Source of the DNA: Candidatus Zixiibacteriota bacterium
Lineage (GTDB): Bacteria > RBG-13-66-14 > B26-G2 > WVWN01
Direction of reading: 5' to 3'
Assembly: GCA_030613505.1 (NCBI GenBank)
Contig: JAUWLW010000031.1
Location: 1 to 35,294 of the forward strand
Length of the DNA stretch: 35,294 nucleotides
This document shows, in pieces, positions 312 to 14,100 of this stretch. Position 1 is the stretch's first letter; every line of letters begins with the position of its first letter. The notes under the pieces were generated by a model. That model saw only the letters and a list, made by a program, of their open reading frames with translations, did not search any database and had not been told where the DNA came from. The position numbers were made by a program, and so were the translations under genes.

Positions 312-385
312 GGGCGATTAGCTCAGTTGGCTAGAGTACTTGCTTGACATGCAAGGGGTCGCAGGTTCAAGTCCTGCATCGCCCA
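312..385 (+). tRNA. tRNA-Val (anticodon GAC)
   Basis: A complete cloverleaf can be drawn. The acceptor stem GGGCGAT pairs perfectly with ATCGCCC, with discriminator A at 385. The D-arm starts GCTCAGTTGG. The anticodon stem is CTTGC/GCAAG around loop TTGACAT, so the anticodon is GAC (valine). The T-arm is GCAGG-TTCAAGT-CCTGC. CCA is not encoded. The 3' part from the first anticodon-loop base (344) to the discriminator is repeated at 2339-2380, which marks this gene as an integration target. A promoter lies immediately upstream and an intrinsic terminator follows at 405-434. Confidence 0.95.
344..385 (+). repeat. Left attachment-site repeat (3' half of tRNA-Val)
   Basis: These 42 bp are identical to 2339-2380. 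The identity begins at the first base of the anticodon loop and ends at the discriminator base. The bases before and after differ between the copies. This is the classic position for tyrosine-recombinase crossover in a tRNA gene. The copy here completes the functional tRNA. Confidence 0.85.
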
Positions 386-404
386 ATAAAGGCAAGGGTT
401 TTTC

Positions 405-434
405 GGGCCGGGTTTTTCCCCGGCCCTCTTTTGT
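405..434 (+). terminator. Intrinsic terminator after tRNA-Val
   Basis: An 8-bp stem GGGCCGGG/CCCGGCCC (405-412 with 419-426) around a 6-nt loop is followed by TCTTTT. It lies 20 nt downstream of the tRNA, inside the inserted element. On the opposite strand the stem is followed by GAAAAA, so it is unlikely to terminate the minus-strand genes. Confidence 0.8.
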
Positions 435-506
435 ACCTTATTTATGCCGTTATAAAACCGCCAAAACAATTCTAAAAATTATTATAGATTTATTTTCTCC
501 CCGAAC

Positions 507-1019
507 CTATTTAAAATCTATAGGGATTATAGTCCGGTTACTGGCATCCACTTCGAATTTCAAAGGAAGAGGTTTAGGTTTAAAGAAATCACCTTCGTAA
601 CTGATTATTATCTTCCATTCTCCTTTATAATTATACGGCCTCTCATCGTTACGCTTGCGAAATATAATCATAAATTGGTCTCCGGGAGCAAGGGCAGATT
701 TTGAAAAATAGAATTCCCCTTGTGGCCCTCTTGGGTTAAAAAGGTATTCCCCCCTAATATCGAATTCCCCTATCGATTCTTTATCATATTTAGGTTCTTC
801 TATTTTTTTAACACGAGTAGGCCCATCGTTTCTTAAAACGAAATGAAATGAATTAAAATCACCTTTCCACCCATAACGGGTTAATGTCGGAGCTTGTTCT
901 TCCTTTTCTCTTTTATTTTTTCGGCGGTGTAAAATTATCGGAACGAATATAGCGGCCAATAAAGCTAAAAACCCCACTACTAATATTATGAGGTTTATTT
1001 GATTTTCGCATAGCTCCAT
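507..1019 (-). CDS. Single-pass membrane protein of unknown function (island paralogue A)
   Basis: The product has 170 residues. An N-terminal transmembrane helix (about 9-31, NLIILVVGFLALLAAIF) is followed by a basic stop-transfer segment (HRRKNKREK) and a mostly beta-type soluble domain (about 43-170). The family was not recognised. It is clearly related to the next gene (1052-1516): RNDGPT (63-68) matches KNYGPT there, and the block at 133-158 (GEWKIIISYEGDF...) matches GILKVIIDFESEF.... The ATG at 1019 has an upstream AAGGACGGG. Codon and base composition are AT-rich compared with the rest of the window, consistent with horizontal acquisition. It is the last of three same-strand genes in the tRNA-Val element. 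The NxGPT plus late beta-strand pattern is reminiscent of Ig-like envelope domains, but that is only an impression. Confidence 0.75.
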   Translation of the reverse strand: MELCENQINLIILVVGFLALLAAIFVPIILHRRKNKREKEEQAPTLTRYGWKGDFNSFHFVLRNDGPTRVKKIEEPKYDKESIGEFDIRGEYLFNPRGPQGEFYFSKSALAPGDQFMIIFRKRNDERPYNYKGEWKIIISYEGDFFKPKPLPLKFEVDASNRTIIPIDFK

Positions 1020-1051
1020 AATCCCGTCCTTATACGGTTATCCTCAGACTT

Positions 1052-1516
1052 CTAAATAAGGCTTAATGAACCTTTATCAATAGCTACGTGAAACTCAAAA
1101 GGTTCCGGTTCTAAGAACTCGCTTTCGAAATCGATTATAACCTTTAATATACCCTGATAGTGTTCTGGTAGAGGTTCCTCAAGATTATAGTCGAAAAAGA
1201 CTAAAATCTCCTCGCGTTGAGCTAATGTTTCTTCCTTACCTCGAATACTAAACGACCCATCAGGAATTGTAAATTCCCCTTCGTGAGTAATAAAATCATA
1301 TATTTCATACCTAAATTCTAATTCCTTAGCTAAGGTTGGGCCGTAGTTCTTTAAATGAAAACGAAAACCGGGAAAGCGTAATGGCATAAAATTAAGATAT
1401 TTTAATACGGGAGTACGTGCCTTATTCGCTTGTGTTTCTCCTCTTAGTAATAAACATATTGTAATGGAGCCGAGAACTACCAATACGCCGGTTAGTATCA
1501 GAATCGCTAACATCAT
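1052..1516 (-). CDS. Single-pass membrane protein of unknown function (island paralogue B)
   Basis: The product has 154 residues with an N-terminal helix (about 2-24, MLAILILTGVLVVLGSITIC) and a soluble domain of about 120 residues. Shared blocks with the neighbour at 507-1019 are FHLKNYGPT (53-61) and GILKVIIDFESEFLEPEPF (122-140), in the same order and with similar spacing, so the two arose by duplication. The start is one of two adjacent ATGs (1516 or 1513), preceded by GGGAGG inside a 41-bp sequence also found upstream of the 1557-2213 gene. No catalytic motif is visible. The single-pass topology with an extracytoplasmic or cytoplasmic beta domain gives no firm function. It is probably co-transcribed with its neighbours, with a gap of 32 nt to the downstream gene. 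Confidence 0.75.
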   Translation of the reverse strand: MMLAILILTGVLVVLGSITICLLLRGETQANKARTPVLKYLNFMPLRFPGFRFHLKNYGPTLAKELEFRYEIYDFITHEGEFTIPDGSFSIRGKEETLAQREEILVFFDYNLEEPLPEHYQGILKVIIDFESEFLEPEPFEFHVAIDKGSLSLI

Positions 1517-1556
1517 TTCGGCCTCCCGCTTTGCCTTATTTTTGACACCTTCCGGC
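1516..1556. repeat. 41-bp duplicated leader sequence, copy 1
   Basis: Matches 2224-2264 in 40 of 41 positions (TTTCGGCCTCCCGC at its plus-strand left end). On the minus strand it carries the GGGAGG ribosome binding site of the 1052-1516 gene and ends against that gene's start codon. Confidence 0.85.
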
Positions 1557-2213
1557 TTAATCCTGAATCGCCGTTACTACTCCATTTTCGAAATAAACGT
1601 AACAACCTAATCCATATACCCATTGCTCGGATGTTCCATATCGAGTAGTAGTCCTGTTAATATCTTCCGGCTCACCCCAAGCTTCAAGGACTATTTTTTT
1701 TGTATCTCCTATATAAATATACCCCTCTAATACACGGGCTATCCTCTTATCTGTCCAGCCGTAGGATTTTAATCTTTTAATCCTAATTGCATGCAAATCT
1801 TCATCGAATATTTTTAACCATTCATCCTTACTATACCAAATTCCATCAACCCATCTGGCGAGGCAATCATTACATATTCCAACCCTTTCAGTGCTTTCTA
1901 AATTTTCACTCCCGCAGTAAGGACACTCAGTTCCAAATGAAGTACTACCTTTACCGCGAAGAAGTGGAACACGACCCTGCTCTTCCCACTTTTTGCCGAA
2001 CTCCTCCGAGGAATACCAAGTTCCATCAAAACAACGCGCAAGACAACCCAACCCCACACATATATATCCTTCTTTGTATGGAATAACAGGGTCTTCAGTT
2101 GGTGGAGGTAGTTCTCTTACGAATTCGTTAGTTTCACAATAAGGACAAGTAGGAGCCTCGGCTAAGGCAAAACTCACCGAAACTAATAGTGCTAATGGTA
2201 GTAGCTTTTTCAT
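1557..2213 (-). CDS. Secreted protein with two Cys-rich ribbon-like repeats and a SmpA/BamE-like C-terminus
   Basis: The product has 218 residues. A Sec signal peptide (1-19, MKKLLPLALLVSVSFALA) is followed by two related modules. Module 1 has CPYC (23-26) ... CVGLGC (52-57) with FDGTWYS. Module 2 has CPYC (97-100) ... CNDC (114-117) with VDGIWYS. The second is a normal four-cysteine ribbon. In the first the second knuckle is expanded (CxxxxC), so metal binding there is less certain. The C-terminal part (about 160-218: YIYIGDTKKIVLEAWGEP, then EQWVYG, then YVYFENGVVTAIQ) resembles the SmpA/OmlA-BamE or DUF2845 fold of small periplasmic proteins. The function is unknown. It is the first gene of the island's three-gene minus-strand set. 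The ATG at 2213 follows GGAGCGGGAG. Confidence 0.75.
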   Translation of the reverse strand: MKKLLPLALLVSVSFALAEAPTCPYCETNEFVRELPPPTEDPVIPYKEGYICVGLGCLARCFDGTWYSSEEFGKKWEEQGRVPLLRGKGSTSFGTECPYCGSENLESTERVGICNDCLARWVDGIWYSKDEWLKIFDEDLHAIRIKRLKSYGWTDKRIARVLEGYIYIGDTKKIVLEAWGEPEDINRTTTRYGTSEQWVYGLGCYVYFENGVVTAIQD

Positions 2214-2223
2214 CTCCCGCTCC

Positions 2224-2264
2224 TTTCGGCCTCCCGCTTTGCCTTATTTTTGCCACCTTCCGGC
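2224..2264. repeat. 41-bp duplicated leader sequence, copy 2
   Basis: Partner of 1516-1556 with one mismatch (C instead of A at the 30th base). It lies 10 bp upstream of the 1557-2213 start on the minus strand. The leader and ribosome binding site were apparently duplicated along with an island gene. Confidence 0.85.
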
Positions 2265-2338
2265 CTTTTTAGAAATCTTAAATCGAAAAAACCCTTATTA
2301 TTTCAGGATTATTTTTGCTCGATATCCTACAGAATCGG

Positions 2339-2380
2339 TTGACATGCAAGGGGTCGCAGGTTCAAGTCCTGCATCGCCCA
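2339..2380 (+). repeat. Right attachment-site repeat (displaced tRNA-Val 3' half)
   Basis: Identical to 344-385 but without a 5' tRNA half in front: upstream is AT-rich sequence that cannot form an acceptor or D-arm. It is the displaced original 3' end of the tRNA gene and is still followed by the original terminator. Confidence 0.85.
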
Positions 2381-2384
2381 CAAA

Positions 2385-2405
2385 GCCCCCGTTCGGGGGC
2401 TTTTT
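2385..2405 (+). terminator. Intrinsic terminator, originally of tRNA-Val
   Basis: Stem GCCCCC/GGGGGC (2385-2390 with 2395-2400), loop GTTC, then TTTTT. It lies 4 nt after the displaced tRNA 3' half. Read on the minus strand, the same hairpin is followed by only TTTG, so it may weakly end the PorV operon as well. A second hairpin, GCGCCG/CGGCGC (2424-2440), has no U-tract. Confidence 0.8.
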
Positions 2406-3571: not shown

Positions 3572-4291
3572 TTATACGAAAGCGAGCGCGACGCCTATGG
3601 CTGCGGCGTATAGGAACGAGATTAATACGTCGGCGGGGTATACGCCTTTATAGTGACGCTCGTCGCCCCGTAACGTTACTACCTGGTAGAGGCGGAGTAG
3701 GTCCGGAACCGGCGCGACGAAGAAGAAGGCCGGCGTGAGTTTGAAACCCAATATTATCGCGGTGACGACTATGGCCCGGGATAAGACGCCGGTAGTTTTT
3801 TCGTAAAGCAATATGGGGCGAGTTTGGTAGTCTTTTTGGAACGTCGCCTTTACGAAAAAGACGAAAATAGTCCCGGCGAACGTCGCCGCCAGGTAACCTA
3901 TTACGTATAACGCGAAAGGTACGTTAAAGTAGTACTTCGCGACGACGTCGGGCAGCGGTACCGGTTGCAGATTCCGGCATAGAAGCGCCACGCCCGCGAT
4001 CAACGCGACGTGCGCCGCCTGGTCGGCGAGCCACATAAAGATGTTGGTTTTGCTTACGGTGTCGATGAAATAATGGAGGACGATCGTGGCGCCGAACGCG
4101 ACCCAAATTTGCCAGTGAACGAGGAAAGGGTATAATAGGAAAAGGCCTGCTAGGGCGTGAATGGCGACGTGCAGTAACCCCCCGAACTTGTATTTATAGC
4201 GGATCTCGAAGACTAAGTTCGATTGTAGCGGATAGTCCGCGAATAAAAACGCGGCGCTCAACCACAGTAGGATGTATTTAAATTGGTCCAA
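3572..4291 (-). CDS. DUF3307 polytopic membrane protein
   Basis: The product has 239 residues with about six hydrophobic segments. The N-terminal half carries the DUF3307 pattern: FADYPLQSN (17-25), HVAIHALAG (41-49), HYFIDTVSK (78-86) and WLADQAAH (92-99). The D/Q, H, D/K and DQ-H residues recur in the family and may form a polar or metal site in the membrane. No biochemical role is established that I know of. The gene lies 22 nt downstream of the CRP-type regulator gene and 3 nt upstream of the PorV-like barrel, so the three are probably co-transcribed. The C-terminal half (about 120-239) is hydrophobic with less recognisable sequence. Confidence 0.8.
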   Translation of the reverse strand: MDQFKYILLWLSAAFLFADYPLQSNLVFEIRYKYKFGGLLHVAIHALAGLFLLYPFLVHWQIWVAFGATIVLHYFIDTVSKTNIFMWLADQAAHVALIAGVALLCRNLQPVPLPDVVAKYYFNVPFALYVIGYLAATFAGTIFVFFVKATFQKDYQTRPILLYEKTTGVLSRAIVVTAIILGFKLTPAFFFVAPVPDLLRLYQVVTLRGDERHYKGVYPADVLISFLYAAAIGVALAFV

Positions 4292-4313: not shown

Positions 4314-4970
4314 TTATAGGCCGAACTCTTCTTTCATCTCCAAGTAGTTCATAAAACGTTCCAGGCTGTCGGCCGATTTGACCATCATAACGTTGTTCTC
4401 GAACCTGACGATTCCGGCTCGACGCAACGTCTCCAGTACTTCCTCGGCTTTTTCCAACGGCAAGCCTGTCATGCTTACTAGTTCTTCGAGCGTCTCTTTG
4501 CGATCTATCACGACGCCCTGTTCGGAAGGGGTCCCCCGCTTGGACATTAGCAGCAGAAGCGTGCCCGTCACGCGGGAATGGTTGTCGCGCATGAGGAGGG
4601 TTTTTATCTGTCGGTCGGCGGCGCGCAGGCGTTCGCTCATTTTTCTCAGGATCGACATTATTATTTTCGGGTTGGTCTTTATCTGCGACTCGAATATGTC
4701 CTTGGAGAGCACCAGGATTTTGGATTCGGCCGCCGTCGTGGCGCTGGCGGAACGAGGTTCCTTATCGATAATCGCCATCTCGCCGAAGAAATCGCCCGCT
4801 TTGAGGACGGCCAACGTCGTCTCGCGGTCGCGAATTCGTTTGTGGATCCTGACTTCGCCCGTTTGGATTATGAACATCGATTCGCCCACGTCGCCTTCCC
4901 GGACGACTACCTCGCCCGGTTGGTAGACCCGCCCGTACCTTTTGAAAACCTCTTCGCTAACATTGAGCAT
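4314..4970 (-). CDS. CRP/FNR-family transcription regulator with cyclic-nucleotide-binding domain
   Basis: The product has 218 residues. Residues about 8-115 form a cNMP-binding fold: GEVVVREGDVGESMFII, then FFGEMAIIDKEPRSASA (61-77). The phosphate-binding cassette keeps GEM and the RS pair (R73, S74), so binding of a cyclic nucleotide is plausible. A long helix (about 103-126) would mediate dimerisation. The C-terminal part (about 130-200) is a winged-helix region (ETLEELVSMTGL, then ETLRRAGIV). The length is normal for the family. It has a near-consensus promoter (5006-5034) and heads the operon with DUF3307 and the PorV-like barrel, so it may regulate its own operon. It has no FNR-type N-terminal cysteines, so an oxygen-sensing FeS cluster is unlikely. 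Confidence 0.88.
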   Translation of the reverse strand: MLNVSEEVFKRYGRVYQPGEVVVREGDVGESMFIIQTGEVRIHKRIRDRETTLAVLKAGDFFGEMAIIDKEPRSASATTAAESKILVLSKDIFESQIKTNPKIIMSILRKMSERLRAADRQIKTLLMRDNHSRVTGTLLLLMSKRGTPSEQGVVIDRKETLEELVSMTGLPLEKAEEVLETLRRAGIVRFENNVMMVKSADSLERFMNYLEMKEEFGL

Positions 4971-5468: not shown

Positions 5469-6359
5469 ATGGCCGGCCCGTCAACGGATAAAACGTCCAT
5501 CAACGACGAGGATACCAGTTATCTGGGTGATCCCTGGCGCGACGCCGGCGCGTTGACCGGCTTCGAACCCGCCATCGAACAAGGGCCGGGCCTTTTCTTG
5601 GCGGCGGTAGGCATCCTTATCGCGGGTGCCGCGGCCCTGTTCGTTCTATTTTGGTATTCTATCGCGCCGCGGCTCGAGGCGTTTTCGCCGTCACTACCAG
5701 TTGCGGTCTTATTGGCCGGCGGCGTCTTAGTTTCGTATATATTTTTAGAATATCTAGGGATAATCGCGACAACGTACACCGGGAGGGCGTTGCTCCTACC
5801 GCTCGGGCGCTCGAGCCGGGTGACCATAAAACTGGTTGCGCCGGCCCGTAGGTTAGCGAAGCTTTTAGGCTCGAGCGCCGACCGGATGGCGCATTCCGCG
5901 GTCCGGGTATCTAACGCCGTTACGCACGCTACGGCAAGAGGTTTTAAAAAGCCCGGCCCGGTTCTCGTTCTGCTGCCGCGTTGCCTACAGCGGCCTGAGT
6001 GCAGCCAACCGCTCGTCGAGGACGTGGACAGCTGCCGCCGTTGCGGCGAGTGTCCCGTCGCGGAAATCTTGTCCCTCCGCGAGGAATACGACGACGTCGT
6101 GATGGCGGTACTTACGGGCGGCAGCGTCGTTCCGTCGGTGGTGCGGCATTTCGACCCGCGCGCCGTAATTGGCGTCGCGTGCGAACGGGAGCTGATAACC
6201 GGTATCTACGTTGTGAGCAAACGGCCCGTGTTGGGCGTAGCCAACCAAAGGCCGGAGGGGCCGTGCCGCCGTACGGCTCTGGACGTGGCCGAGCTCCGCG
6301 CCGCCGTCGAAACTTTCGTGCCCGGCGTAACGGACGTTGAAAAGCTTGATCGGGAATAG
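5469..6359 (+). CDS. DUF116 family membrane protein with conserved cysteines
   Basis: The product has 296 residues. An N-terminal tail of about 40 residues is followed by two transmembrane helices (about 41-64 and 76-101) and a cytoplasmic DUF116 domain. The domain shows VLVLLPRCLQ (165-174), C178, CRRCGEC (189-195), a VVPSVVRHFDP block, C238 and C266 in RPEGPCRRT. The cysteine pattern is the DUF116 hallmark and could bind a metal or FeS cluster; the function is unknown. The neighbouring ferredoxin makes a redox role thinkable. The ATG at 5469 has no visible ribosome binding site and follows a hairpin directly. No other ATG exists in frame before the helices, so translation may be weak, coupled or leaderless. 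Confidence 0.82.
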   Translation: MAGPSTDKTSINDEDTSYLGDPWRDAGALTGFEPAIEQGPGLFLAAVGILIAGAAALFVLFWYSIAPRLEAFSPSLPVAVLLAGGVLVSYIFLEYLGIIATTYTGRALLLPLGRSSRVTIKLVAPARRLAKLLGSSADRMAHSAVRVSNAVTHATARGFKKPGPVLVLLPRCLQRPECSQPLVEDVDSCRRCGECPVAEILSLREEYDDVVMAVLTGGSVVPSVVRHFDPRAVIGVACERELITGIYVVSKRPVLGVANQRPEGPCRRTALDVAELRAAVETFVPGVTDVEKLDRE

Positions 6360-6521
6360 ATGCGGAGAACGGGGCCTCGTCGCGGGTCGGTATTCCCGCT
6401 CCTCGGCTAACGTAAATGGCCCTGCGTCGGCGAGATTAACGGGCTACGTTTCGTTGTTTGAACCGATTAACGTTAACGCTAACGATCACGTACTGCTACA
6501 TTGCTTCCCGGGAGAAATCAT

Positions 6522-8738
6522 ATGCGTTCGAGGTTTACGTTGGGTATTATCGCGGCGGCCGCCGGTTCCGCTATCGCGTTATTTAACCCGGCAACGGATA
6601 CGGTGGACGACCCACGGTTTTTCGTACCGCACCTCTACGACGGCGCGAAGGGTACGAGCGACGTCACGCCGGTCCCGCACGACTACGACGTCCGCGAGTA
6701 CGTAATAGACGTGAAGCTCCACGACGTCGAAAAGAAAATTTCGGGGAATTGCAAAATAACCGCCTCGAGCTCGAAGAACGACCTCCGCAAGGTTCAGTTT
6801 AATTTTGCAAACGACATGAACGTCTCGGCCGTAAAACAGGACGGCAAGAACTGCACCTTCAAACACGCTAACGACGTGCTGGAGATAACGCTCCTAACGC
6901 CGAAACAGAAAGGCGAAAAGTTCGCGGTAACCGCGTTCTATAGCGGCAAACCCCAGGACGGCCTTTACTTTACCAGTAAGGGTGCCTACGTCTGCTCGGC
7001 CATGGAGGAGGCGCAGCATTGGTTCCCCTGTTACGACTTGCCGAACGATAAAGCCGACCGCGTGGAGTTGAAAGTCACGTGTCGCGACGACTGGTACGTC
7101 GCGGCCAACGGCGTTCTAAAGGGCGAGAAGAGCAACCCCGGCGGGACTAAGACGTTTACGTGGGTTACGACGAACCGCATCGCAACGTACCTCGTCAGCA
7201 TTTCCGGCGCGTACAAATATTCCCGCTTCGGCACTAGCTGGGGAGGCATCCCGATACGGTATTACGTCTTCCCGGAACACCGCGCCAGCGCCGAGATATG
7301 CTTCGAGTACACGCCGCGGATGATGAACTTCTTCTCCAACAGGTTCTGGCGGTATCCGTTCGACGACGAGAAGTACGGCATCGCCGAGGCCGAGATGGGG
7401 TACTTCGGCGGGATGGAAAACCAAACCTGCATAACGCTGAACTCGCCGTACGTGCGGCCCGACCATAGTTCGGACCATATCCTGGCCCACGAGCTGAGCC
7501 ACATGTGGTGGGGCGATTGCATATCGCCCGGTACCTGGAAGGACCTGTGGTTGAACGAAGGTTTCGCCACTTATTGCGACGCGTTATGGGAGGAGCACGA
7601 TAAGGGTAAACAGGCTTTCCGTGCCCGGATGCAACTTTTCGCAAACACCTACTTCGCCGAGGACGCGCGGCATCGGTTTCCCGTCTACGCCCCGGAGTCG
7701 CCGTGGAGCGCGACCGTATATCAAAAGGGCGCGTGGGTTATGCACATGCTGCGCCACGTCCTGGGAGAAGAGAAGTTCTTCCGCGCCTGGAATAAGTACG
7801 GCCGCGCCCACGAGTACAGCCACGCTTTCACGTACGAGCTCCAGCGCGCAATGGAAGCCGAATACGGCAAGAGCCTCCAGGAATTTTTCGACGATTGGGT
7901 CTATAGAGCCGGTTACCCGGTATACGAGTACGACTGGACGACCGCCGGCAACTCGGTGACGGTTAATATCTGTCAGGTCCAGAAGCAGAGCCGCCTTACG
8001 CCGCTGTTCGACATGCCTATCGACCTCACCATAACGACGCGGGGCGACGGCACCCACGTCGAGACCGTCTTCGTCAAGGACCGTCATCACCGCTTCAAGT
8101 TCGCGTACGGCAGCCCGGTGACGAACGTCGAGTTCGATAAATACGGCTGGGTATTGTGCAAGAAGAGCAACGTCGTCGACGTCCCGGTAGCGTCGTTCGA
8201 AGCGCAGCCGGCCCGCGGCGCCGTCAAACTAACGTGGAAGACAAACCCGGGTGCGCGCGCCGCGGGGTTTAATGTTTACCGGGCGCCGACGGCCGGCGGC
8301 GACGAAGGCCGCACCAAGCTGAACGCCGAGCTCATAACCGGCCGCTCACCCTACGCGTATCTGGACCGCGACGTCGAAGCCGAGGAGAGGTACCGTTATT
8401 GGCTCGAGGCCGCGAAGTTGAGCGGGGGCAGTGAGACCTTCGGGCCGGTGGAATGCGAGGCCGGTAAACGTGCCTCGACGTTCGCTCTTGAGCAGAACTA
8501 TCCCAACCCCGCTCGGGACGTAACGACGGTAAGGTTCTCGCTGCCGGTGCCGGCCGAAACTACGCTTAGCGTTTACGACCTGGCCGGTAGAAAGGTGCGG
8601 ACGAGTCGCATAACCGCTTGTTCCGAAGGGGAGAATGAAACGGCGGTCGACGTATCGAGCCTCGCGCCGGGGGTTTATACGTACCGCCTCGAGGCGGGCG
8701 GCGCGGTGGCGGCGCGGAAGATGGTCGTAGTAAAATAA
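6522..8738 (+). CDS. Secreted M1-family zinc aminopeptidase with C-terminal sorting tail
   Basis: The product has 738 residues. The start is the ATG at 6522, preceded by GGGAG at normal distance; an upstream in-frame TTG at 6501 is less likely. A signal peptide (about 1-22) precedes an N-terminal beta domain and the catalytic domain: GGMEN (296-300, exopeptidase motif), zinc site H323-E-x-x-H327 plus E346, and Tyr400 in VYQKGAW as the likely transition-state tyrosine. After the catalytic part comes a beta-sandwich Fn3-like module (about 560-650: VKLTWKT, GFNVYRA) and a FlgD-like/T9SS type-A tail (about 655-738: NYPNPA, VYDLAGRKV, LAPGVYTYRLE, ARKMVVVK). It should cleave N-terminal residues from peptides outside the cell or at the cell surface. 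It is followed by a terminator, so it is probably monocistronic. Confidence 0.92.
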   Translation: MRSRFTLGIIAAAAGSAIALFNPATDTVDDPRFFVPHLYDGAKGTSDVTPVPHDYDVREYVIDVKLHDVEKKISGNCKITASSSKNDLRKVQFNFANDMNVSAVKQDGKNCTFKHANDVLEITLLTPKQKGEKFAVTAFYSGKPQDGLYFTSKGAYVCSAMEEAQHWFPCYDLPNDKADRVELKVTCRDDWYVAANGVLKGEKSNPGGTKTFTWVTTNRIATYLVSISGAYKYSRFGTSWGGIPIRYYVFPEHRASAEICFEYTPRMMNFFSNRFWRYPFDDEKYGIAEAEMGYFGGMENQTCITLNSPYVRPDHSSDHILAHELSHMWWGDCISPGTWKDLWLNEGFATYCDALWEEHDKGKQAFRARMQLFANTYFAEDARHRFPVYAPESPWSATVYQKGAWVMHMLRHVLGEEKFFRAWNKYGRAHEYSHAFTYELQRAMEAEYGKSLQEFFDDWVYRAGYPVYEYDWTTAGNSVTVNICQVQKQSRLTPLFDMPIDLTITTRGDGTHVETVFVKDRHHRFKFAYGSPVTNVEFDKYGWVLCKKSNVVDVPVASFEAQPARGAVKLTWKTNPGARAAGFNVYRAPTAGGDEGRTKLNAELITGRSPYAYLDRDVEAEERYRYWLEAAKLSGGSETFGPVECEAGKRASTFALEQNYPNPARDVTTVRFSLPVPAETTLSVYDLAGRKVRTSRITACSEGENETAVDVSSLAPGVYTYRLEAGGAVAARKMVVVK

Positions 8739-8767
8739 CCTAACTTATGTTATTATATAAGAAAAGC

Positions 8768-8795
8768 CCCGGCCTAACCGAGCGCCGGGTTTTTT
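8768..8795 (+). terminator. Intrinsic terminator after the M1 peptidase gene
   Basis: Stem CCCGGC/GCCGGG (8768-8773 with 8784-8789), a 10-nt loop, then TTTTTT. Confidence 0.8.
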
Positions 8796-8820
8796 CGGCT
8801 TTGGGAACTGGGTGATGTAG

Positions 8821-9996
8821 ATGGGTTTAATCTACCTCGACCACGCGGCGACGACGCGGCCCGACCCGCGCGTCGTAGAGGTTATGCAGCCCTATTTCAG
8901 GGAGTACTTCGGTAACCCCCTCTCGACGCATCCCTTCGGCGAGAAGCCGCGGGAGGCGCTCGAGCGAGCCCGCGGACAACTCGCCTCGCTGCTCGGTTGC
9001 GAGAGCCGCGAGCTTATATTCACGTCGTCGGGAAGCGAGGCGAATAACCTCGCCGTCAAGGGGGTCGCGCTCGCGCGCGAGAATAAGGGCAAGCACGTCG
9101 TCATCTCCGCGCTCGAGCACCGGTCGGTGACGAACGCGGCGCAGAGCCTGGCCAAGCGCGGTTGGGAGGTGACGACGGTACCGGTCGACTGCTACGGCAT
9201 CGTCGACCCCGACGACCTTAGAGCGGCGTTGCGCGCCGACACGACGCTCGTATGCATCAACCTCGCCAACCTCGAGATAGGGACTATAGAGCCCATAGCC
9301 GAATTAGTGAAGGTAGTAAAGGAGAACTCGAGCGCGGCGTTCCACGCCGACGCGGTACAGGCGGTTGGGCATATACCGGTAGACGTCGGCGAACTGGGCG
9401 TCGATTTGCTATCGGTATCAGGTCACCGCTTCTACGGCCCCAAGGGCTCGGGCGCGCTGTACTTCAAGAAGGGCGTGAGGGTTCAGCCGCTGATCGACGG
9501 CGGCATTCAGGAAGGGGGCCGCCGCGCGGGAACCGAGGATGTCCCCGCCGTCGTCGGCCTGGGCGAGGCGGCTCGCATCGCCGAGGAAGAAATGGAGCAG
9601 CGCTCGGCCCACGTACGGGCTCTTCGCGACCGGCTGCACGACGGCTTGTTCGAACGCATACCCCACCTACACCTAAACGGCCATCCCGAACGGCGCCTGC
9701 CGATGCACGAGTCCGTGTGCGTGGAATACGTAGAGGGCGAGGCGATGATACTCTTCCTCGTTCGGGAGGGAGTTTGCGCGTCGAGCGGTTCGACTTGCTC
9801 GTCGCGGGCACTCAAGGCGTCGCACGTTCTTTTGGCTTGTGGCCTCGACCCGGCGGTAGCGCAAGGTTCTCTCCAGTTCACGCTGGGGTGGGAAAACAAC
9901 TCTGAAGAAATTGAAAAAGTCCTCAACGTACTGCCGGAGGTGGCGAAACGTCTTCGCGCAATGTCGCCCATTTACCCGGGCGATGACAAAGCTTAA
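8821..9996 (+). CDS. Cysteine desulfurase (IscS/NifS) homologue lacking the PLP lysine; probable pseudoenzyme
   Basis: The product has 391 residues and aligns end to end with group I cysteine desulfurases: YLDHAATT at the N-terminus, GSEANNLAVKG, the PLP-stacking His100 (ALEHRSV), Asp177 and Gln180 (HADAVQAVG), His202, the GGRRAGTED loop and the mobile loop with Cys326 (SSGSTCSS). Three key residues differ. The Schiff-base lysine (SGHK in E. coli IscS, K206) is Arg203 here. The Asn of NNEIG (N155 in IscS) is Leu151. The arginine expected in the SxRF strand that holds the substrate carboxylate is Gln352. The frame is intact and otherwise conserved, so the fold is maintained. Normal PLP chemistry seems impossible; a sulfur-relay, scaffold or regulatory role is a guess. 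No IscU, SufU or thiolation gene is nearby. Confidence 0.85.
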   Translation: MGLIYLDHAATTRPDPRVVEVMQPYFREYFGNPLSTHPFGEKPREALERARGQLASLLGCESRELIFTSSGSEANNLAVKGVALARENKGKHVVISALEHRSVTNAAQSLAKRGWEVTTVPVDCYGIVDPDDLRAALRADTTLVCINLANLEIGTIEPIAELVKVVKENSSAAFHADAVQAVGHIPVDVGELGVDLLSVSGHRFYGPKGSGALYFKKGVRVQPLIDGGIQEGGRRAGTEDVPAVVGLGEAARIAEEEMEQRSAHVRALRDRLHDGLFERIPHLHLNGHPERRLPMHESVCVEYVEGEAMILFLVREGVCASSGSTCSSRALKASHVLLACGLDPAVAQGSLQFTLGWENNSEEIEKVLNVLPEVAKRLRAMSPIYPGDDKA

Positions 9997-10121
9997 CGTA
10001 AGGTCGGCTCAGGCCGCAGCGTCGTGGCGCTTAGTTTTATTTTATTTCTTCAGTTTAGCGGTTGCGCTAACCACAGGTCCCGGGAAACATTTGTTTTTTC
10101 TTGTTGAGGACGTTTTTTCGC

Positions 10122-10149
10122 TTGACAAACGTCGCAGAATATATAAAAT
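10122..10149 (+). promoter_or_regulatory. Sigma70-type promoter of the M23 peptidase gene
   Basis: TTGACA (10122-10127), 16 bp, TAAAAT (10144-10149). It lies 23 nt before the GTG start at 10173. Confidence 0.75.
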
Positions 10150-10172
10150 TAGGCTCCTAAGGGAAGAACCGC

Positions 10173-11114
10173 GTGACCCGATCCACACGCATACGTGAGA
10201 GCGTACGACGGCTTCGCAAGAAGCACGTCTCGGTTGTGTTTGCCCCCAGCGGTACGGGGGTAAGTCGTACGTTTCGCGTTTCTATCTTTAGGTGTTACGT
10301 CGTTGCCGCCGCGTTGTGCTTCTTCGCGGCGGGTCTTCTTGTCATAAGTCTCCAGTACGCTTCTCGCAAGGAACTTGCAAATCGCTTAGATCAACTGAAG
10401 AGCCTAGCGGGCGCGCGCGATACCCGTTTCGACGAAATCGCCCGCGAGAGAAGCCGTCTTCAAAGAGAGTTGTCGTCGCTCGCCAGTTTCGACGATTCGT
10501 TGCGGGTGATACACGACCTCGAAACTGTGCCGGCCGACGTCAGGGAAGCCGGCGTCGGCGGCCCTCTTACGAACATTACCCAAATGATAAAGTTCGGCCG
10601 CGACAAGAACGTCGACGACCTCGAGCTGGCGCTCCGACAAGCTCAACTTCAAAACGATTCCTTTGGAGAGATTATTACCGCGCAAACCCGTACCCGCCAT
10701 ATCTTCGACCACACGCCCGCCATAAAACCGTGTAGCGGCCATATTTGTTCGGGTTTCTGTTGGCGGCGCAACCCGATCTTCGGCGGCGTCCAATTCCATA
10801 AGGGCATAGATATCGCGATTCCTACGGGCGCGCCGATTGTGGCGCCCGCCAACGGCGTAGTGACCTTTGCCGGGATGAAGGGTGGCTACGGTTATTGCGT
10901 GTTTATTAGGCACGGCTACGGCTTCGAAACGCGCTACGGCCACTGTTCAGTTTTAACCGTTGGCGAAGGCCAACCGGTGAGCCGGGGCGACATCATCGCG
11001 TACGTTGGCGCTACGGGGTGGGCCACCGGTCCCCACCTCCACTACGAAGTCCTCGTCGGCAGGACGCACGTCGACCCGGCGCAGTACATCCTTCCCGATT
11101 ATTTAATCGATTGA
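10173..11114 (+). CDS. Membrane-anchored M23 (LytM-type) metallopeptidase
   Basis: The product has 313 residues. A short basic cytoplasmic tail is followed by one transmembrane helix (about 42-63), a coiled-coil region (about 66-115, rich in K/R/E with leucine spacing) and a C-terminal M23 domain (about 185-305). The zinc ligands are H209 and D213 (HKGID) and H290 of the HLH pair (288-290), with YGHC before it. All motif positions are intact, so peptidoglycan cross-bridge cleavage in the periplasm is expected; the coiled coil also resembles regulators of division amidases. The start is GTG at 10173 with GGGAAG upstream and a good promoter. Odd: five cysteines sit in the extracytoplasmic domain at positions that are rarely cysteine in this family (three within CSGHICSGFC). 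Confidence 0.9.
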   Translation: MTRSTRIRESVRRLRKKHVSVVFAPSGTGVSRTFRVSIFRCYVVAAALCFFAAGLLVISLQYASRKELANRLDQLKSLAGARDTRFDEIARERSRLQRELSSLASFDDSLRVIHDLETVPADVREAGVGGPLTNITQMIKFGRDKNVDDLELALRQAQLQNDSFGEIITAQTRTRHIFDHTPAIKPCSGHICSGFCWRRNPIFGGVQFHKGIDIAIPTGAPIVAPANGVVTFAGMKGGYGYCVFIRHGYGFETRYGHCSVLTVGEGQPVSRGDIIAYVGATGWATGPHLHYEVLVGRTHVDPAQYILPDYLID

Positions 11115-11132
11115 TTTCAGGTAAAAGTTAAA

Positions 11133-11157
11133 AGGCGGCCCGGCGGGCCGCCTTTTT
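11133..11157 (+). terminator. Intrinsic terminator between convergent genes
   Basis: A 9-bp stem AGGCGGCCC/GGGCCGCCT (11133-11141 with 11145-11153) is followed by a T-tract. On the minus strand the hairpin is followed by TTTTAACTTTTAC, so it probably serves the convergent gene at 11175-15044 as well. Confidence 0.85.
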
Positions 11158-11174
11158 GATTATGGCAGGTTAGC

Positions 11175-14100
11175 TCACCGCACTTTTTGGATTATTACCG
11201 GCTCGTTCTCCCAATCGTCTACGTTCAAACAGAACTCGCGAAACGCGGCGTAATCGTCGGGTCGGATACGCTGCGCGTATAGCTCCAGCTCATGTTTAAT
11301 GGAAACGCGGTTCCCCTCGGCGCGGACGTCGATGGCCAAGGTTCCGAAGGGCGAACGGAATTCTTTAGCCAAGGGCAGGGCGGCGAACGCGTACCCTTTA
11401 GGGATAATATAAGTTAACTCTGCAACGGCCTTCTGGTTTTCGCGGAGTATTAAAGGCCAACGGCGTGACGCTTTTTTTCCGTAACGGGCGAGCAAGTTAG
11501 ATTTGTGGACGACGGCGTCGAGGTGGACGCGCACGCCGGCCGGGTCGTACAGCCGTTTGACCACGGCGTCGTATTCCGTGCGTACCGGTTGCGAGAGGTC
11601 GGATATGTCGGAGAACTTCTCGTTGAAGACCTTGGTGCCCGGAAAAAGGCCATTCCAATATTCCTCGATTACTGCTTTTCGCTTCGCCTCCACTTGAAAG
11701 CGTTCTCGCTGGTAGGGCGCGTCGGCGGCGCCGTACTCCACGACGCGGTGGACGTGGGCGTCCCCGCCCGGTTGGAGGACGAAGGTGGTTCTGGTTTTTA
11801 TGCGGTTCTCTTCGAGAGATAAAACAAGCGTACGGAGGAACGTCGCCCGGTCGGCGAAGACAACCAGCGCGTCGATGCCCTGGTCGCCGGCGGGCAGCTC
11901 GCGGTACGAGTGGTATTCGGCCGTGCCGTCGAGGAAGAACGTGCGGCCGTCGGGGAGCTTAACGTACGAAATCATATGATTGAAAAGGCCCAGGATGGGT
12001 AGCTCGTAGTCCAGCTCGCCCAAGCCCGCGGTTCTTATCAGCGCCGGATACGCCTCGAAGCCCATGAGGCGGTAGAGGGTGTTCATGAGCGTAGCCTTGT
12101 CTTTACAATCGCCGTAATGGGATTCGAGACACTGTTTGGGGGTATGAGGGCGGTAACCGCCGATCCCGAACTCCAGGCCCACGTACCGGATCCGGCTAAC
12201 GGCGAAGTCGTATACGCGTTGGAGTTTCGTCAAGTCGTCCGGGGCATCCGTGGCGAGTTTGGCGGCTAGAACCTCGATTTCAGGGGAGGGTCGGAATACG
12301 TCTTTAATCAAACCGTTGTACCAACGCCCAACATCGTCCCAGCTGGCGAAAGTCGATACCTGAAAGCTCGGGAGGATTTCCGCCAACGCCGGCATATAGG
12401 GTTCTTCATTGATCGCCGGTAAGTCTTCCATCCTGTAGACGTACGTGGTCTTTCCGTCGCGCCGTATAGTCTCGGCCGGCGGAGCGCCCCGCAGACGCTC
12501 AAAATAGTAGTCCTTGCCTTTAGGGAAGGTAACGGCGTAGCGCGCGACAATGGTCGAGTTCTTGTCGCCGAAGTAATAAAAGTCGCCGAAATACCCGGCG
12601 AAGAGGTTTTTGCCCGTCTGGCTTATTTTATATTCGACATCCAGGGTGTCGCCGGGCGACAAGCTCGGCATCGTTATGACTTTGTTTACGTAGCTGTAAT
12701 AGAGCCGGCTCCAAACGTCGAAGACGTTGTATTCTTTGATCTGGCTCGCGGTAATCTCGGTCCCGTCGGCTTTTAAAACCGCGGTGCGCTTTAGCTCCAC
12801 GTTTTCTAAACCCGGGGAGTAACTGACGTTTATATTTCGGAACTTCTCCGCGCCCTCGGCCGTCAGGATTTTTACGACGTAGTGTACTGTCCGCGTACTC
12901 GTACCGTTTTCGAATACTTCGACGTGGCGGTCGTCCAGCAGCCACACCGCGGAATCGTGCGGAAAAGCGCCGTCGCCGGGGTAGACGGCGAGCAGCTCGT
13001 ACGCGTCCAGCCGCGGGACCGCGTGCCGTTCCGAGGACGGCTCGAGGTAGTTGAGATAATTTTCTAAAGCGGGGTAGTTGCGTTTGAAAGTTATCGCTTT
13101 TCTATACGCGTCGCGAGCCGGTGCTTCCCGGCCCAATTTCTCCAAGGACGTTCCCCTGTAGCGCCAGAGCTCGTAATCTTCCGGCCGGAACTCGAGCGCG
13201 GCTTTAGCTTCGGCCAGGGCTTCGGCGTGGAGGTCGTAATGGTCAAGCGCCGCGATCAATATTTTGCGCGCGCCAACGTCGTAAGGGTCAGCTTTTAAGG
13301 CGCGGCGCATTACCGTCGTTGCCTCGTCGAAATTGTCCTTTTCTAAAAGGAGTTTAAATAGTTCGTCCCGCGCGCTCGTCGAATAAACGTCGACTTCGTA
13401 AATCGTACGCCAAATTTCCGTCGCCCGCGCGAAGTCGCCGTAGTTCGTTTCGAACAAAGCTTCGACCATCTTGCTGAACGGGTAATTCGGTAGCCGGTCG
13501 CTGAGCTCGCCGGCTACGCGCGCGGCGTCGTAGGCGTAACCTGATTCCCAGTATAATTTGGCGCGGTATTGCTCGGCCTCGACGAACGTCGGATTGCGGT
13601 TTAGGACGTCGTCGACGACGTCCAGGGCGGCTTCCGGGCGATCGAGCGCGTAGAAATATTTCGCCAGCTCAAGCCGCGCTTGGTTATGTCGAGGCGCCAG
13701 CTTAAGGGCTCGAGTCAGGCTGGCACGTATCCGTGATTCCTCTTCTTCGGTAATGCCGACGTAATAGTGGAAGTCCGCGGCCTCCGGTATCGCCGATTGC
13801 GCGGCGAGCATTAACTTAGTCGGGACCTCTTCTTTCTCGTCGGTATCGGCCCGGGCGTAGTGCTCGAGCGCCCCGTAGTAGTAATCGAACGCGTCCGCGT
13901 TGCCTTGCATAATGCGGCGGTCGAAGTATTTGAGTTCGTCGTAGGGCGGGGGCGGAAGGCCGGCGGCGCGGGAGGCGGCGGCGAGGGCTGCCGTGCCGGC
14001 GTCGTAGGTAACGTCGGTTAGCGGTTCACCGTCGTTCCCTAAGAACCGGGCGCCGAAACCCCAGCGTTCGTCGTCGCCGCAGACTTTTACCAGTAGGAGA

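Follow-up and report, generated by a model that had tools for sequence, protein, structure and literature searches.

Phage attachment cores of 42-44 bp are known that extend from the anticodon loop to the 3' end of a tRNA gene, restore the tRNA at attL and are flanked by arms (PMC10865867). Islander lists 2,083 anticodon-centred islands, and displacement of the 5' half of the tRNA is the rarer type in this collection (159 of about 3,900 islands; PMC4383910). An integrase gene is required for an island to be listed, so that integrase-less passengers of 1-2 kb are filtered out by design. Cargo bounded by att sites but lacking an integrase has been described as classical CIMEs of 1.2-13 kb, solitary examples of which are acknowledged to be missed (PMC7563491). 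Finally, hitcher genetic elements, including MITEs, CALINs and PICMI satellites, depend on a helper enzyme that recognizes DNA motifs (PMC11389934).

The locus described here, a 2-kb element in a tRNA-Val(GAC) gene, shares features with each of these systems. Like CIMEs, it carries cargo between intact att sites without integrase or transfer genes, and its size falls inside their range (PMC7563491); unlike them, it is solitary rather than in tandem with an ICE or IME, it bears no trace of a conjugative ancestor, and its arm motif is shared with an integrase locus at another tRNA. With anticodon-loop islands and prophages (Islander; mycobacteriophages Boilgate and Omega) it has in common a core of 42-44 bp, a tRNA restored at attL and putative arms (PMC10865867, PMC4383910), whereas the integrase gene that has to lie inside an Islander island is missing. 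It may be likened to hitcher elements, yet it is neither a transposon nor an attC cassette but an att element of the tyrosine-integrase type, present in one copy and carrying protein-coding genes. Nor is an integron cassette or CALIN indicated: one repeat is a tRNA half, the other a 44-bp block, and the repeat search listed no inverted repeats of attC type. The element is thus of a known kind; what is unusual is the combination of a solitary 2-kb element, a complete two-armed putative attP and an arm motif matching a resident integrase at another tRNA.

The window analysed (35,294 bp) corresponds to contig C97 in the draft assembly of genome G000, which totals 2.86 Mb in 100 contigs, and the tRNA-Val(GAC) locus begins 312 bp from the contig start. 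Comparisons were made within a phylum set of 14 genomes, G000 and 13 others, among which G001 and G003 belong to the same genus and have the tRNA-Val site, while G004 belongs to the same order. Features of the locus are collected in the table.

Table. Features of the tRNA-Val(GAC) locus (window positions) and of related loci elsewhere.
Feature	Position	Strand	Remarks
tRNA-Val(GAC), reconstituted	312..385	+	ARAGORN; Rfam tRNA 69.4 bits
attL core, 42 bp, anticodon loop to discriminator	344..385	+	perfect direct repeat
Element-borne tRNA terminator hairpin, core stem 405-426	392..434	+	terminator scan; -22.1 kcal/mol, z -3.2
Left arm-like site TGTACCTTATTTATGCCG	432..449	+	14/18 to arm motif, 81 bp after anticodon loop
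Cargo gene 1, 170 aa, N-terminal membrane helix	507..1019	-	open reading frame; BatA N-terminal match weak, below cut-off
Cargo gene 2, 154 aa, paralogue of gene 1	1052..1516	-	27% identity, E 1e-13 to gene 1
44-bp repeat R1, arm motif TTTGCCTTATTTTTGACA at 1530-1547	1513..1556	.	internal repeat
Cargo gene 3, 218 aa, signal peptide, two Cys-rich zinc-ribbon-like repeats, DUF2845-like C-terminus	1557..2213	-	
44-bp repeat R2, right arm motif TTTGCCTTATTTTTGCCA at 2238-2255	2221..2264	.	motif 83 bp before attR loop
attR core, displaced native tRNA-Val 3' half	2339..2380	+	perfect direct repeat
Native tRNA-Val terminator	2382..2403	+	terminator scan; similar sequence, same position at G001/G003 empty sites
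tRNA-fragment runs	G003 C36 fetched stretch 1081-1330; G002 fetched stretch 8660-8860	G002: minus	

As the preliminary description had it, the two copies of the 42-bp direct repeat are 100% identical. The repeat is not one base longer at either side; its first base is the first base of the anticodon loop (TTGACAT, 344-350; anticodon 346-348) and its last is the discriminator A. The element accordingly measures 1,995 bp, that is, one att copy plus 1,953 bp. Both att copies have an A (positions 369 and 2364) where G001 and G003 have a G (GGTTCAAGTCC vs GGTTCGAGTCC), so the att of the element exactly matches the host's own tRNA variant. GC content is 0.39 in the 1,953 bp between the repeats (386-2338) vs 0.60 in 2381-35294, and third-position GC is 0.30-0.32 in the three cargo genes vs 0.68-0.77 in the three flanking genes measured.

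Joining the window flanks at one att copy restores a sequence that aligns contiguously to both sister genomes (4,011 columns at 83% for G001; 4,045 columns at 74% for G003), whose tRNA-Val genes are uninterrupted. The interior (386-2338) has no match in the tRNA-Val loci of G001 and G003, and gene searches of the 14 phylum genomes found the cargo genes in G000 alone (0 of the 13 others). Two empty sites within the genus, together with the absence of the cargo from these 13 genomes, identify a real and lineage-specific insertion: the 2-kb segment is foreign DNA inserted site-specifically into tRNA-Val(GAC). The suggestion that the element brings a replacement tRNA 3' end is thereby supported, and the tRNA at 312-385 can be read as a native promoter and 5' half completed by an element-borne 3' half. 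A separate tRNA terminator had also been proposed for each side, and both hairpins are present, but their origins need correcting. Downstream of the tRNA, G001 and G003 have a terminator of the CCCCCG..CGGGGG type, the type now found 3' of attR, whereas the left hairpin is absent from both empty sites; the right terminator is therefore native and the left one came with the element.

Two other accounts of the locus can be weighed against these data. The second tRNA half might stem from a local duplication, or ordinary vertically inherited genes might lie between two tRNA halves by chance. The source genome does hold a tandem tRNA-Val(CAC) duplication, on contig C7, where two such genes lie 1,092 bp apart on the minus strand (fetched stretch 3798-3870 and 4890-4962), each followed by a near-identical gene for an exported or membrane protein, so that tRNA and gene were duplicated together; a 6-kb stretch fetched from G001 has one tRNA-Val(CAC) copy. 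At tRNA-Val(GAC), the empty site in both sister genomes, the absence of the cargo from the rest of the phylum set and the drop in GC from 60% to 39%, mirrored at third positions, make this account scarcely credible. The preliminary description had itself named the same three genes in relatives, or a simple local duplication, as telling against an insertion; among the 14 phylum genomes the genes occur in G000 only, and the sister sites are empty. Alternatively, the assembly could have joined an extrachromosomal element to the chromosome contig through a shared 42-bp tRNA 3' end. A draft of 100 contigs and a locus 312 bp from a contig start invite such a suspicion, but the flanks on either side keep their synteny with G001 and G003 through the junction, a 42-bp repeat is below usual assembly word sizes, and the left terminator and arm are placed exactly as at other integrated ends (see below), so we consider an artefact improbable.

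In agreement with the preliminary description, the AT-rich segment holds three open reading frames, all with hydrophobic or signal-like N-termini, and no recombinase match. Profile searches detected no recombinase, relaxase, VirB4 or phage structural gene among the three, and intergenic stretches do not exceed about 125 bp. Genes 1 and 2 encode paralogous membrane proteins, each with one predicted N-terminal hydrophobic stretch; gene 2 had no family match in profile searches. The product of gene 3 contains CPYC-type Cys-rich motifs, and its DUF2845 match (E 0.0017) is below the cut-off, while residues 177-218 match phrog_11546 (E 2.6e-13), a phage family without assigned function. In the AlphaFold model of gene 1 the N-terminal helix reaches a pLDDT of about 80 and the remainder is low; confidence in the cargo models was too low for a structure search. 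There was no PADLOC match that would point to a defence role. None of the cargo genes was found in viral contigs, phages, plasmids or GTDB contigs in scans covering at least one collection per gene, the pattern scans reaching close relatives only. The three envelope-type proteins make up the cargo of the element.

The preliminary description missed a 44-bp repeat inside the element (R1 and R2), each copy of which carries an arm-like motif that contains two direct TTTGCC-like units. The exact 18-mer TTTGCCTTATTTTTGCCA occurs in G000 only at the right end of the element and at an integrase locus on contig C68, with a one-base variant also in the element; similarly, TTTGCCTTATTTTTGNCA is restricted to the element (twice, in the 44-bp repeats) and C68:5636-5653. 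Near the left end there is a 14/18 match; shuffling predicts matches of this quality on that strand at about 2e-5 per position. A 13-mer version of the motif has exactly three places in G000, namely both element ends and the integrase locus. The reversed control of this 13-mer gives two matches in G000, so weight is placed on the positions of the matches and not on their count. By sequence and spacing, the core is flanked by putative arm-type sites on both sides of the attP. The left copy, 81 bp from the loop and behind the terminator, together with the right motif, suggests that the element keeps a two-armed attP; once excised, it would have a complete putative attP in the order arm, 83 bp, core, 81 bp, arm. 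Gene 3 and one arm-bearing 44-bp repeat form a 708-bp unit flanked by the other repeat copy (1513-2264), as though capture of the gene had brought in a second element end with it. A further motif-like sequence, CCTTATTTATGCC at C6:4687 of G001, lies in reverse orientation by a terminator with no tRNA, and was taken as chance since a reversed-pattern control gave a similar number.

What the motif marks is illustrated by displaced halves of tRNA-Pro in this genus. On contigs C36 of G003, C1 of G002 and C50 of G000, the motif lies 3' of a terminator that itself lies 3' of a decayed tRNA-Pro 5' half; the C50 copy has two mismatches, at its end. Counted from the last anticodon-loop base, the motif starts after 81 bp in G003, G000 C50 and copy a of G002, and after 82 bp in copy b of G002. 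From the loop through the motif, the left end of the tRNA-Val element and the displaced tRNA-Pro ends align without gaps. These halves were initially considered as RNA genes in their own right, an idea that was dropped because synteny between C50 and G001 shows them to be integration remnants: C50 keeps the tRNA-Pro left flank of G001, with the protein end FVFSSG.EPK.VE.VPRRIGEK and the adjacent terminator, and this native flank indicates that displaced tRNA-Pro halves mark real integrations. A single contig of G003 has a decayed half and, 19.5 kb away, a live tRNA-Pro, and the promoter region is present in duplicate. We read the displaced halves as probable boundaries of elements that entered tRNA-Pro at its anticodon loop and displaced the 5' half. 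Left ends carry the motif 3' of their terminator and the right end carries it next to the integrase; both kinds of element end thus have it, which is what arm-type sites would be expected to show.

The preliminary description had looked to a tyrosine recombinase elsewhere in the genome, and six such loci are present in G000, one of them next to the 18-bp motif of the element. This integrase gene (C68:4627-5634; Pfam Phage_integrase; phrog_1, E 2e-67) adjoins an XRE regulator gene and is upstream of tRNA-Pro(TGG) at 5752; a DnaG-type primase gene is located farther upstream on C68. The motif begins 1 bp past the integrase stop codon. Within 3-4 mismatches, no arm motif was found near the other fetched integrase loci of G000, and this speaks against its being a motif of local integrases in general. 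No close relatives of the C68 integrase were found in GTDB and viral contigs, and within the phylum only a contig-end fragment in G003 (50% identical) and an integrase on C83 of G000 were recovered. The latter, a second tyrosine integrase (fetched stretch 6014-7979) that is 35% identical to that of C68, lies on the 5' side of tRNA-Leu(CAA), without the arm motif.

The XRE-Int elements at tRNA-Pro (C68/C50 of G000 and C36 of G003) resemble the tRNA-Val element in the arm motif, in crossover at the anticodon loop and in a left arm located behind the terminator at 81 bp from the loop. They differ in that the 5' half of the tRNA is displaced and that an integrase is encoded by the one in G000; in the tRNA-Val element it is the 3' half that is displaced, and there is no integrase gene. 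Right-hand spacing from arm to loop is 83 bp at tRNA-Val vs 130 bp at C68; outside the arm the two right ends show no significant similarity, arm and core being separated by unrelated DNA. Target choice by tyrosine integrases requires that the attP overlap match the target and that the core half-sites be acceptable; the anticodon stems of tRNA-Val and tRNA-Pro both read TGC-N7-GCA around the loop.

Since the ends of the element carry the motif found beside a resident integrase, it was probably moved by a helper. At a rough probability of 0.55, we favour the reading that the tRNA-Val element is an integrase-less integrative passenger inserted in trans by the C68 integrase or a sibling. Its circular form would contain the 42-bp core, that is, the tRNA-Val 3' half followed by its own terminator, between the two arm-type sites. 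A tyrosine integrase supplied in trans, most likely by the XRE-Int module on C68 beside tRNA-Pro or a close sibling, would bind the arms and carry out the crossover within the tRNA-Val(GAC) anticodon loop, leaving a working tRNA at the left and a displaced 3' half at the right. On this reading the motif would be an Int arm site, the C68 integrase would accept the tRNA-Val core, and the element could presumably still excise. Movement in trans had already been proposed; the shared 18-bp motif strengthens it beyond what was then available, while the integrase responsible is a candidate. Several observations count against helper-mediated insertion, including the differences in right-end spacing and sequence from C68 noted above. 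The target of the putative helper is tRNA-Pro, not tRNA-Val. Parts of the helper element lie on two contigs, C50 and C68, and the element may itself be old, since the tRNA-Pro half that it displaced has decayed. The further copies anticipated in the preliminary description did not materialize, as no second element with tRNA-Val repeats is present in G000. The exact 42-bp att is absent from the viral contigs searched.

Deletion of an integrase after the event offers a different history. In that case the element that integrated at tRNA-Val would have encoded an integrase of the same arm-site family and later lost the gene, leaving a solitary CIME, cargo between intact att sites that is now immobile unless a helper arrives. 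CIMEs of this att-bounded type (1.2-13 kb) are common elsewhere (PMC7563491; PMC5704250), the C68 integrase directly precedes the right arm, the position taken by gene 3 in the tRNA-Val element, and the duplicated R1/R2 block shows that the right end has been rearranged. On the other hand, no piece of an integrase gene was found, stretches of spare DNA reach about 125 bp at most, the two arms and the two cores are undamaged, and the sister genomes that have the site both lack the insertion. The element contains no ICE or IME remnants and has the arm motif in common with the XRE-Int module; in its present state the window holds no neighbouring integrase element at tRNA-Val. With arms, cores and the three open reading frames intact and almost no spare DNA, no scar of a lost integrase is visible. 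We regard such a loss as a serious but less probable explanation than passage in trans.

If insertion in trans is confirmed, tyrosine integrases would have parasitic mini-elements, as transposases and integron integrases do, and such mini-elements could switch their target tRNA while keeping the arm sites of the helper. The locus provides a concrete search signature for passengers, a tRNA fragment, terminator and arm motif at fixed offset with no integrase, and the C68 integrase can be named as resident helper candidate. A more speculative and rather doubtful proposal is that minimal cargo cassettes form a class of their own, retaining no more than a two-armed attP and relying on the integrase of an element resident at one tRNA, which they would use with a different core. 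Cassettes of this kind would colonize other tRNA genes without competing for the site of the helper. For the compact class envisaged in the preliminary description, the only candidate parallels are two units at tRNA-Pro remnants of G002. On the minus strand of C1 (fetched stretch 9040-11640), three successive displaced tRNA-Pro 5' halves delimit one unit of 1.7 kb with a transglutaminase-like gene and one of 1.0 kb with an LptE-like gene, neither with an integrase. These single-gene units are possible further passenger elements, and were the class real, they would be members of it as combinations of a gene and a tRNA half.

Traces of other integrations were seen as well. In G004, the genome from the same order, a lone tRNA 3' half is followed by a terminator (fetched stretch 3854-3915), and the 8 kb retrieved contain no tRNA gene; we read it as the mark left by a further integration. 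Beside the displaced tRNA-Pro halves of G002 and G003 there are runs of short fragments resembling tRNA anticodon arms and T arms (e.g. GCAGAAGGTCGG), which look like a graveyard of repeated integrations.
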